A stretch of 43,359 nucleotides of DNA from Candidatus Brocadia sp. Lineage in GTDB: Bacteria; Planctomycetota; Brocadiia; Brocadiales; Brocadiaceae. The translations under genes were made by a program, and so were the position numbers. The stretch spans positions 1-43,359 of the forward strand of contig SOEU01000025.1 in the NCBI GenBank assembly GCA_021646415.1. Reading direction: 5' to 3'. Of the stretch, positions 83 to 18,208 are shown piece after piece (the first letter of the stretch is position 1; each line of letters begins with the position of its first letter). The notes beneath the pieces were generated by a model. That model did no database searches, had not been told where the DNA came from, and saw nothing but the letters and a program-made list of their open reading frames with translations.

Positions 83-125
83 CCTAATCCTGCAACAAGG
101 CTTCGCCTTGTTTGCAGGATTTAGG
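83..125. repeat. Hairpin-forming inverted repeat
   Basis: The arms CCTAATCCTGCA-ACAAGGC and GCCTTGT-TTGCAGGATTTAGG pair around a TTC loop with two one-base bulges, giving a stem of about 19 bp. There is no following T-run, so it is not an obvious terminator on the plus strand. It resembles the other short GC-rich palindromes scattered through the window's intergenic spaces. Confidence 0.6.
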
Positions 126-182
126 TTTAACAATATTTTCGGGCAGGATATTTTTGTCCAAGGCTGAGCGCAAGCGTTAGAT
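125..182 (+). other. Possible degenerate attC-like site
   Basis: GTTTAAC at 125-131 fits the integron R'' consensus RYYYAAC, and GTTAGAT at 176-182 fits the core GTTRRRY. The latter sits in the context CGCAAGCGTTAGATAC, which resembles the 3' ends of attC sites. The core lies 26 bases before the start of the gene at 209, as in a cassette. The inner arms do not pair well (only a short GGATA/TGTCC stem is visible), and no attC follows the gene, so this is a weak call. Confidence 0.22.
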
Positions 183-208
183 ACAGGTAAGCATTAAGGA
201 AAAACATT

Positions 209-703
209 ATGTCTGACCAAGATGGCACACCAATATTCGAAGTGTGGGATAGATATGAAAATATCGCCAAGCACTTCAATGATCTACTTATCAAGCTAAG
301 AACACAGGCACTTGGTGGGGTTGCCGCAATTACTTCCATTGGGGCAATTCTAAGTAAAAATGGAGGTGAATCTGGGTTTAACTGGGCAATAATGGCTGGC
401 GTATTCTTCTTTCTTAATGTTTTCTGGGTTGCTGTCTGGATTCTCGACTTTAAGTATTACAACCAACTTCTTCGTGGATCGGTTGATGCTCTATTGGATC
501 TGGAAAAACTGACCCAAACTAAAACACACGTTAAAGAACTCGACCTAAGTACAAAAATTGAAGATGCAGTAGCCGGTAAAAGAACGAAGACTGGTGAAAA
601 ACCATACAGGAAGTTATTCTGTGGTATAATGTGGTTTTATTTTGTTGTGCTTGGTGGCCTTTTAATTGGTCTAGCTCTTTCAATTTATAAAGTTGTATGC
701 TAG
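209..703 (+). CDS. Hypothetical small membrane protein
   Basis: This 164-residue protein is of unrecognised family. The N-terminal 35 residues are soluble and amphipathic. A hydrophobic stretch around residues 35-48 (ALGGVAAITSIGAIL) may be a weak membrane segment. A strong transmembrane segment lies at about residues 58-80 (FFFLNVFWVAVWIL), and a second strong one at the C-terminus (MWFYFVVLGGLLIGLALSI). Between them is a charged cytoplasmic-type loop of about 55 residues rich in Lys, Glu and Asp. The ATG is preceded by AAGGA at 196-200. The overall plan (charged helix, membrane hairpin, C-terminal anchor) is seen in many small accessory or defence-associated membrane proteins, but nothing here assigns a function. 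A GTTAGAT core-like sequence upstream raises the possibility that it was once a cassette gene. Confidence 0.65.
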   Translation: MSDQDGTPIFEVWDRYENIAKHFNDLLIKLRTQALGGVAAITSIGAILSKNGGESGFNWAIMAGVFFFLNVFWVAVWILDFKYYNQLLRGSVDALLDLEKLTQTKTHVKELDLSTKIEDAVAGKRTKTGEKPYRKLFCGIMWFYFVVLGGLLIGLALSIYKVVC

Positions 704-839
704 CTCACGGGGAGAAAGGAGAAAGAGGGGTCACCCATTAGAAGGCTTTTGTCAAGCGAAAAAGATTTGTCCCCCCCATTATTTCTCTGCTCGGCGCAAG
801 TGATACTCATCGTTAGTTGCGACCCGAGGTTGCATAATT

Positions 840-1040
840 GATTGTATAACAAGGAGTTATCTTCTTGATTATACCTGATGTATTCCCATCAGTACCCTAG
901 GGAGGCATGCTACCATTGCGCTGATGATGGGGTGTGGAGCCCTCTCGACAATGTACCGAAACGGGTAGAAACCGTGAGGTGAAAACCCATCCGGAAATCC
1001 CGTCCGGTTAAGGGCTAGGGTCTGGATAATACGGTGAGAT
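840..1040 (+). other. Possible structured RNA / group II intron remnant
   Basis: No gene is visible from 704 to 1390. Within it, roughly 930-1030 reads like folded RNA. It begins GTGTGGAGCCCTC, matching the GUGYG start of group II introns, and continues with CGAAACGGGTAGAAACCGTG, GAGGTGAAAACCC and CCGGAAATCCCGTCCGGTTAAGGGC. These runs have the GAAA-rich, self-complementary look of intron domain I. No maturase and no domain V hairpin are visible, so if this is an intron it is a 5' fragment. The assignment rests on pattern resemblance only. Confidence 0.22.
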
Positions 1041-4769: not shown

Positions 4770-5040
4770 TTTGTTTCGATGCTTCTGTTTTTTCTTTGTT
4801 GAAGCCTCTCTAAAGAACGACTTTCGCATCACTCAACGATAGAATTCATTGGCGGCGTTCTTTGCCGTCCACCGCAATAATTTGTTATTTTACCTAGCCT
4901 CGATAGCTTGCCTCCATGTGATAGCCGTAGCAGCGATCATCAAACAGGTTTTTTGAACTCGACGTAGGTTTCAGAAAGCGTACAAAGATAGCGGGAACAC
5001 CAGAATTACCATGCGAGTCAGCATAATGTCAGAATATTTC

Positions 5041-15950: not shown

Positions 15951-16177
15951 ATAAATCTTAGAGGCTAATATGCACTTGGGAGTGTTGATGTATTTCCGTA
16001 GAAGGATGTATCGAGACTATAGACGGCAAGGTACAGCCAGTCATTATGCTCAGGCAGTCTGACGAACCATCTGTTATTTTCCATTTTTATTTTTTATCTT
16101 TGTATCTATAATAGTATTGTTCATCTTCTTATTCTTACGAAAAAAGTATATTTTTCAATTTGTTTTATGACAGTACT

Positions 16178-17248
16178 ATGAAGACTGGTATTGCACATCT
16201 TCCGCTTCACGGAGGCAAGGCACCGTCCTGGCTCTTTCAGCGGATGAAACGCCTGGCAAGGGAAATTACCATTGCTATCGTAAGCGAGTATGGCCCTCGG
16301 GAAATGCCCAAAAGACTTTCTGATCCATTCTGGTTTCAGGCGTTAGGCTGCGTATTAGGATTTGACTGGCATTCCAGCGGCGTAACCACAACTACCTGCG
16401 GGGCTCTGAAGGAGGGTATCAAGGGGCTTGAGAAGGAACTGGGACTATTCATTGCCGGAGGCAAGGGCGGGACTTCCCGAAAGACACCCTCAGAGATTGT
16501 GGGTGTGGGTGACCACTTGTCATGTGACCCTGAAAAACTCGTTTATGCCAGCCGTATGAGCGCCAAGGTGGATAGTAGCGCCGTGCAGGATGGGTATCAG
16601 CTCTATCACCATTCGTTCATCTTCACGAAGTCCGGGGACTGGGCGGTTGTTCAGCAGGGGATGAATGATGTCAATAAGTATGCCCGCCGGTATCATTGGT
16701 TGGGTAGTAAGGTTACAGATTTTGTGGTGGAACCACATCAGGCCATTTGCTGTGATTCCAGGGGAAATGCCTTGAATATGGTAGCCGGGGAAAGTGAAGA
16801 GGCACGACAGACCACTGTCATGCTTTCTCAAATAAAGCCCGATGCTTTAGTAAGCGAGATCAAGAAGATGCAGAACTTGCATTTGCCCTCCCGTCATCAC
16901 GTCGATGTCCATGATATTCATCCTGACAGACTGTATAAGATATTCATAAAAACCTATGAAACCGTCCCCAAAGATTTTGAATCCCTGCTGGGAATAGAAG
17001 GTGTAGGGCCAAAAACCATCCGTGCCCTGGCCCTGATCTCAGAGATTGTCTATGGTAAAGCCCCGAGTTTCAATGACCCTGTACGGTACAGCTTTGCGCA
17101 TGGTGGTAAGGACGGACATCCGTTCCCTGTTGATAAGACTGTTTATGACCGTTCCATTGAAATATTGAGAAAGGCCATTAAACAATCGAAGGTGGGAAAC
17201 AGTGAGAAGATGGACGCTATCAAACGGTTGAATTATCTTGATGCATAG
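16178..17248 (+). CDS. DUF763-family protein
   Basis: A 356-residue protein that starts MKTGIAHLPLHGGKAPSWLF, the characteristic opening of DUF763, which decides the start; an in-frame TTG at 16160 adds six residues without support. Other marks are DPFWFQALGCVLGFDWHSSG, the HHSFIF and EPHQAI segments, and near residue 275 a helix-hairpin-helix-like LLGIEGVGPKTIRALALI, followed by DPVRYSFAHGGKDGHPFPVD. DUF763 is found in archaea and scattered bacteria. The hairpin motif suggests nucleic-acid binding, but no enzyme activity is known to me. It ends 127 bases before the attC-like site and runs in the opposite orientation to the cassette, so it is not part of it. Confidence 0.85.
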   Translation: MKTGIAHLPLHGGKAPSWLFQRMKRLAREITIAIVSEYGPREMPKRLSDPFWFQALGCVLGFDWHSSGVTTTTCGALKEGIKGLEKELGLFIAGGKGGTSRKTPSEIVGVGDHLSCDPEKLVYASRMSAKVDSSAVQDGYQLYHHSFIFTKSGDWAVVQQGMNDVNKYARRYHWLGSKVTDFVVEPHQAICCDSRGNALNMVAGESEEARQTTVMLSQIKPDALVSEIKKMQNLHLPSRHHVDVHDIHPDRLYKIFIKTYETVPKDFESLLGIEGVGPKTIRALALISEIVYGKAPSFNDPVRYSFAHGGKDGHPFPVDKTVYDRSIEILRKAIKQSKVGNSEKMDAIKRLNYLDA

Positions 17249-17375
17249 GATTTTCAATTTTGATCATTAGGAGTGGAAGATTCTATCCGCAGGGATGTCT
17301 ATTGCAGGAAACAGAGTTGTTTTATCAATAACACAAGTATGAATTAAAAGGTTTTAAGATTAGTATATATTTTCA

Positions 17376-17427
17376 GTATAACGCTTCGGTTCAGCAGCGG
17401 ACCGTCCGCTGGAACCGGTTGTTAGGT
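17376..17427 (-). other. attC-like integron recombination site
   Basis: Read on the minus strand, ACCTAAC (R'', 17427-17421) matches RYYYAAC exactly and GTTATAC (core, 17382-17376) matches GTTRRRY at all but one position. Between them CGGTTC (17387-17392) pairs with GAACCG (17412-17417), and CAGCGGA (17395-17401) with TCCGCTG (17405-17411), around a CCG loop. The two extra bases AG (17393-17394) are bulged out. Paired arms, extrahelical bases, unpaired spacers and terminal core boxes are the defining features of an attC. Confidence 0.75.
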
Positions 17428-17931
17428 ATGATCTGTTCCTCCTTGTTACCGCCTCGTTTCTCCAGTCATTGGATCTACAACCAGCTTCATCTTTTGTCTG
17501 TCCTTGCGCAGTTCGACTTCCCAGAACCCATCATCAAAATCAACTTCTATTACGGTGCCCATCCCACGAGCTTCGATAGACTGAATGATTGTTGAGATCG
17601 ACATGGCGTTTGCTAATGGTATTTCATCAGAATCCGTTTTCCGCCGGCGTTTTTCGTCACCGGTTCGTGGGTCGAGGTAAAGCTTCTGGCAAGCAGCCGC
17701 ACCGCAGATCTTCACCTCCCACAGGCCGTCCTCGAACTCGGCTTCCGTAATGCTCCCCAGTTTTCGTTCTTCCACCGATTTGAGGATCAACGAGAGTGGC
17801 TTGTTACCCGGTGGCAGAATTTCACCGGCTAGCGCTGCAGTCAGTGGGGAAAGCAACAATCCGAACATCAAGAAGACCATTGTGACACCCTTGCTTTTCA
17901 TGAGACATCCTCCTGTCAAATGATTGCCTAA
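17382..17931 (-). mobile_element. Solitary integron-type gene cassette carrying a PepSY gene
   Basis: On the minus strand a GTTAGGC core site (17932-17926, matching GTTRRRY) lies 24 bases before the ATG of the PepSY gene. The gene stops at 17446, and after 18 bases the attC-like site begins. Cutting each core after its G gives a 550-bp unit that starts TTAGGC and ends in the attC, the exact layout of an integron cassette: one gene, little spare DNA, attC at the 3' end. No integron integrase or second cassette is visible, so this would be a lone cassette, perhaps inserted at a secondary site or left after loss of an array. Confidence 0.68.
17446..17901 (-). CDS. Exported protein with two tandem PepSY-like domains
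   Basis: A 151-residue protein. The start is ATG 17901 with AGGAGG seven bases upstream; a longer reading from 17979 would run through the cassette core site and hide the signal peptide. The signal is KSKGVTMVFLMFGLLLSP then ALAG. Two similar repeats of about 50 residues follow. The first runs from LSLILKSVEERKLGSI through EFEDGLWEVKIC to YLDPRTGDEKR; the second runs from STIIQSIEARGMGTV through DFDDGFWEVEL to VVDPMTGETRR. These are PepSY folds, which often act as small periplasmic modulators of enzymes or sensors. It is the sole gene of an integron-like cassette and appears more GC-rich than its surroundings, consistent with transfer. Confidence 0.85.
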   Translation of the reverse strand: MKSKGVTMVFLMFGLLLSPLTAALAGEILPPGNKPLSLILKSVEERKLGSITEAEFEDGLWEVKICGAAACQKLYLDPRTGDEKRRRKTDSDEIPLANAMSISTIIQSIEARGMGTVIEVDFDDGFWEVELRKDRQKMKLVVDPMTGETRR

Positions 17932-18208
17932 CAATGTTATTAACAAGTTTTCTTTAATCTGACAAATAGTACAGCGCAAATCAAGGAATAATTGACATAA
18001 ATATTGACATATAAAATAATTATAAGAAGTGGTTGAGGTACTATCCTGATTTCTGCCATAAATACTGGGGAAGACAAAAGGGGTCGAATCGTTCCAGGTT
18101 ATCCGAGAATAGGTGTTTTAGCAAATTCTTGTGTCATACTTTGTACTAATTTTGTGCTAAAATCAATCCAAAAGGATATAGTTAATTGAGATGCATAGAA
18201 AGGTACAT

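Follow-up and report, generated by a model that had tools for sequence, protein, structure and literature searches.

The window analysed here (43,359 nucleotides) is the whole of contig C25 from the 3.8-Mb genome of a Candidatus Brocadia species assembled in 42 contigs. Its minus strand carries, in order, a core site GTTAGGC (17932-17926), a gene for a PepSY_2 protein (17901-17446) and an attC site (17427-17376) that ends in a second core, GTTATAC. The gene has a ribosome-binding sequence, AGGAGG (17909-17914), read from the sequence, an ATG at 17901 and a stop at 17446; these elements, like the R'' box and stem that follow, lie on the minus strand exactly where an earlier note had placed them. 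A single open reading frame is thus enclosed by a G^TT core on either side, and the two crossover points delimit 550 bp (17382-17931) with a GC content of 0.51, against 0.29-0.31 in the flanks.

The cassette gene (17446-17901, minus strand) encodes 151 amino acids, beginning with an apparent signal peptide, recognized by eye, followed by a PepSY_2 domain (Pfam PF13670; 50.1 bits in a profile search, cut-off 24.3), in agreement with the exported PepSY protein described in the earlier note. It is present as a single copy in this genome. PepSY domains generally serve as propeptides or peptidase inhibitors, and our guess is therefore that the product is a periplasmic protease inhibitor. Between 10 and 30% of integron cassettes encode signal peptides (PMC8618304).

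The attC site (17376-17427, minus strand) consists of an R'' box ACCTAAC (17427-17421), a hairpin and an R' box GTTATAC (17382-17376). It was evaluated with two covariance models: R1, built from 14 attC sites of plasmid class 1 integrons with the textbook R''/R' and L''/L' pairing, the loops of longer sites being shortened in the alignment, and R2, built from 40 plasmid and Brocadiaceae sites with the present site left out. R1 scores the site at 35.2 bits in the window (E 5.7e-7; next match 14.7 bits, E 0.17) and at E 5e-5 over the genome, where four matches in all fall below 1e-3; R2 gives 45.1 bits (E 3.4e-7 genome-wide). The attC-like site proposed from reading alone is therefore far above background. 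R2 matches number about 16 in this genome and 9-30 in each of 13 Brocadiaceae relatives searched; of nine genomes more distant within the order, four have none, a fair check of its specificity. An Rfam search returned no match at the site. A home-made regular-expression and stem-only scan was dropped because it yielded chance matches and 3 of 40 shuffles attained its score; given this lack of specificity, the case for the attC rests on the covariance models and on the relatives.

On either strand, the minimum-energy fold of the attC is a two-part stem with two bulged bases (top strand, -13.0 kcal/mol, z -3.95; bottom strand, -13.6 kcal/mol, z -3.8, equalled by none of 200 shuffles). The bottom strand is the one that IntI recombines, and its fold has paired R boxes, a spacer and the two bulged bases. 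These bases lie on the L' arm, in contrast to the extrahelical bases of the VIM-2 site and of L117, which occupy the L'' arm; in the covariance alignment another register is taken, with a canonical L'' bulge, leaving the side of the bulge ambiguous. R'' can pair with the upstream core GTTAGGC at six of seven positions but with the resident R' GTTATAC at only four of seven, the pattern that two ends of one circular cassette should show.

A second, eroded attC-like site occurs at 4831-4890 on the minus strand (R2 24.8 bits, E 6e-4 in the window), with no intact cassette gene identified alongside it. At 125-182 the match is too weak (14.7 and 12.6 bits) for us to call an attC. This end of the window (125-1015, plus strand) also contains a membrane-like open reading frame of 164 amino acids (209-703) and, beyond it, a piece of a group II intron (874-1015; Rfam RF02012, 89.9 bits). 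Group IIC introns are known to target attC sites.

Both flanks of the cassette are repeated elsewhere in the family. Downstream, a conserved 3' segment designated A (17251-17375, minus strand) starts behind the last attC, at the core GTTATAC, and most of its copies have a different attC directly before them. Upstream, segment B (17933-18067, minus strand) ends in AACATTG^TT, with the consensus ...TTGACTTACGCTGTACTATTTGTCAAATTAAAGAAAACTTGTTAATAACATTG^TT when read towards the cassette, and is a Brocadiaceae repeat followed by a different cassette at each copy. Across ten aligned copies of B the post-core sequence changes, and only L111_11198 and L125 share one. When a joined A+B query was searched against 59 relatives, with copies counted by hand from the match table, about 30 copies of A were found, nearly all of which stop at the core, as well as about 43 copies of B, which start at the core at the same junction as the upstream site here (17926-17932). 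None of these roughly 73 copies runs through the junction. The clean empty site lacking 17382-17931 that the earlier note had proposed looking for was likewise not found in the 59 relatives, and an insertion as such is therefore not observed; the exchange of cassettes described below is the stronger evidence.

Segment B is, by its sequence and surroundings, an attI-like site (attI-B). Its core, AACATTG^TT, has the same spacing as AACAAAG^TT of attI1, and in two relatives (G005, L109; G009, L110) B lies between a divergent intI and attC-bearing cassettes, which is the place of attI. B thus has an AAC-N3-G^TT core, cassettes inserted at that core and, in relatives, an adjoining intI. A second type, attI-C, ends in ...GCCGTTTTATACAGACTGTATAATCATTG^TT and follows intI in the same direction in G004 (L080, L129, L131); both types adjoin intI in a fixed order in relatives. 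Within attI-B, a promoter-like sequence on the plus strand (TTGACA-17-AATAAT, 17992-18020), a consensus match only (11 of 12 positions), points away from the cassette, towards the position of intI in relatives. Further out, segment B' (18065-18200, minus strand) corresponds to the sequence that precedes intI at L129 and L131, but here attI-B runs straight into it at 18065 without an intI between. The direct repeat GATGCATAG at 17240-17248 and 18190-18198 was dropped as a target-site duplication of a transposing element because homology to the B' repeat itself accounts for the right copy (other copies of B' read GAAATGAATAGAA) and the left copy is the end of the preceding gene.

Tandem copies at L105, L106 and L111 are not predicted by a simple attI and 3' end. 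Segment A is found in tandem, with a gene between, at L105 8895-10721 and L106 9843-10770, an arrangement that a single 3' end leaves unexplained. At L111 9037-11203, three copies of attI-B about 1 kb apart each precede a different sequence, and no attC was detected among them. A family of 331-amino-acid proteins lies behind segment A in several genomes (L103 12117-13112, L105, L108, L114, L104) and has no Pfam or PADLOC match.

The same-genus relatives include Ca. Brocadia pituitae (AP021856.1, G002) and Ca. B. sapporoensis. Three sister species (G003, G004 and G005) have segment A behind the gene that precedes it here (16160-17248), which we take to encode a DUF763-type protein; the junction is the same, but other attC sites adjoin it, and the orthologous slots of G004 and G005 hold other genes (HNH and methyltransferase; XRE; AAA ATPase). 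The slot is therefore older than these species and has changed its contents. No PepSY match was found at this locus in G003, G004 or G005, and the PepSY gene is patchy among relatives (8 of 39), with homologues directly after attC sites in two genomes. The homologue in Ca. B. pituitae is identical at 15 of 15 nucleotides from G^TTAGGC inward and at 22 of 60 outward, because there the gene sits behind attI-C. The PepSY cassette thus occurs in other contexts, and cassettes are exchanged at the same site. Vertical inheritance of the PepSY gene at this locus, which the earlier note had regarded as counter-evidence, is not what is found, since sister species have other cassettes at the core.

A TIGR02249 profile search of the genome identified no intI on this contig but one full IntI gene on contig C12 (65263-66204; 476 bits, cut-off 265). 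Its product is 51% identical to IntI1, with the catalytic R, H, R, H and Y invariant, and cassettes lie beside it, with attC sites at 66896, 67890 and 70056 plus further candidates. Segment B is not adjacent to this intact gene. The earlier statement that no integrase is in view is accordingly correct for the window but not for the genome. Fragments of other intI genes occur on contigs C41, C4 and C26. At C26:17264-18237 (L019 7264-8237) there is a decayed integron comprising an attC, a GreA/Rnk-like gene (named by eye), an attI-B at 71% and intI fragments. A further attI-B lies on contig C16 (L099 269-1349), together with a single methyltransferase-like cassette and the highest-scoring attC in this genome (R2 61.9 bits).

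The 550-base gene is, on these sequence features, a genuine mobile integron cassette. The attC, the core junctions, the attI-like and 3' segments, the different cassettes that sister species have in the slot and the intact IntI elsewhere can all be read directly. Since an attI-like segment and a conserved 3' segment surround the cassette, the locus is very probably what remains of a chromosomal integron, with a single cassette in place and the integrase gene lost. Cassettes would enter and leave at the core that separates the 3' segment (17251-17375) from the attI-like segment (17933-18067). The cassette attC would fold, on its bottom strand, into a hairpin that the tyrosine recombinase IntI recombines with the attI core at G^TT, and the inserted gene would then be read in the direction leading away from attI. 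B' abuts attI-B directly, and the integrase gene that relatives keep near attI-B is therefore missing; it appears to have been deleted from this position, although a recombination event joining two integron types would leave the same picture. The insertion may have been made by the lost adjacent integrase or by the distant IntI, which presumably can still move the cassette in trans.

Other explanations account for parts of these data. The C12 IntI, intact and accompanied by cassettes, could have placed a cassette of its own integron at a non-classical site (attG), so that an integron never existed here; such insertions have been published (Loot et al. 2024, as cited in PMC11023631), and off-target insertion is one proposed route to clusters of attC sites lacking integrases (CALINs; PMC8618304). 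A random attG site would, however, be unique sequence, whereas both flanks are multi-copy and break at the core, B adjoins intI in relatives and sister species carry other cassettes in the slot, so that this origin is very improbable. The idea that a mobile cassette landed or remained in this chromosome thus stands as far as an integron cassette is concerned, but not as a stray insertion, since attI-like and 3' segments flank it.

The flanks might be ordinary dispersed intergenic repeats (MITE-like) that are frequent cassette targets rather than attI and 3' segments. They have many copies with ragged outer limits, and longer repeat mosaics include both B' and A; against this, nearly all of the copies break at the core with none uninterrupted, and B and the second attI type keep their fixed order beside intI, making the proposal a very improbable one. 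Chance could also give a cassette-like appearance to an ordinary chromosomal gene that has a terminator-like hairpin and a pair of GTT motifs, as the output of the loose stem-only scan illustrates. The genome-wide E-values from two covariance models, the outcome of the joined A+B search and the exchange of cassettes at the same junction in relatives refute this coincidence, to which we assign practically no weight. The integron deprived of its integrase gene remains the preferred reading.

The locus does not have the intI next to attI that defines a complete integron; it has an attC and a cassette gene with no intI nearby, as in the CALIN and single-attC classes of IntegronFinder (PMC9024848), where a canonical attC and cassette gene likewise lack a nearby integrase and for which an origin from degraded integrons has been proposed (PMC9024848). 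It differs from a CALIN in retaining attI-like and conserved 3' segments common to several slots in the genus, and its one attC is under the default report limit of two in IntegronFinder 2. Class 1 integrons (IntI1, attI1, 5'-CS, 3'-CS) similarly have constant 5' and 3' segments around exchangeable cassettes and an AAC-N3-G^TT attI core, and the attC here is found by a model of class 1 sites; this locus, however, is chromosomal, is missing its integrase, has no qacE/sul1-like 3' genes, and its segments are unrelated in sequence. The sedentary integrons of Vibrio and Xanthomonas are also chromosomal, with cassettes mostly of unknown or defence function, but form one long array, whereas Brocadia has several short arrays at many places. 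Insertions at attG (Loot et al. 2024) also put cassettes outside a complete integron, although at a degenerate genomic site instead of a conserved attI-like segment. The delta-attI type cassettes, with attI pieces repeated between genes, recall L111, but are reported from mobile class 1 integrons (PMC12901181).

In related slots elsewhere, the cargo is of a defence type. The array B' - attI-C - cassette - cassette - A, found in G001 and G007, contains a PDC-S21 defence candidate (attC 33.8 bits with R1) and a type II restriction-modification system (attC 43.5 bits); the genes of this two-cassette defence array (L103 6721-11845 and L108 737-5860) are near-identical in the two genomes. Slot L104 encodes an SfiI-type restriction enzyme. 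At L114 2947-9885, between A and B', lie genes for a ThsA-like (Thoeris) protein, a TIR-like protein, two methyltransferase-like proteins and an HNH protein, the TIR-like and methyltransferase-like genes being named by eye. As relatives hold quite different cassettes in the same slot, the genus has several small gene-swapping slots at scattered places on its chromosome. It is possible, although we hold it only tentatively, that the anammox bacteria of the Brocadiaceae possess a distributed integron. Each genome would then have several short slots, most of them without an integrase; every slot would be headed by one of two or more attI types and often closed by a shared 3' segment, one or two intact integrases would act on the slots in trans, and the system would be used largely to trade anti-phage defence cassettes, including multi-gene ones of several kilobases.

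Integrons are known in Planctomycetota (PMC2426708, PMC8618304), and CALINs are a recognized class (PMC9024848). In the open literature, supplementary tables and subscription papers excepted, no paper was found that pairs Brocadia with an integron integrase, or with an integron and attC. The CALIN or single-attC kind is therefore known, but its repeated, scattered form in anammox bacteria appears to be undescribed in the open literature searched, and a specialist may not expect the scattered layout with shared attI and 3' segments.

Anammox bacteria grow slowly, have no ordinary pure cultures and are relevant to the nitrogen cycle and to wastewater treatment; to our knowledge, how they acquire genes is poorly known. 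The Brocadia slots offer a concrete, countable mechanism of gene acquisition with exact insertion points. Existing metagenomes would allow one question to be tested directly: whether many separated attI sites share a single integrase, and whether strains trade phage defence genes through these sites.
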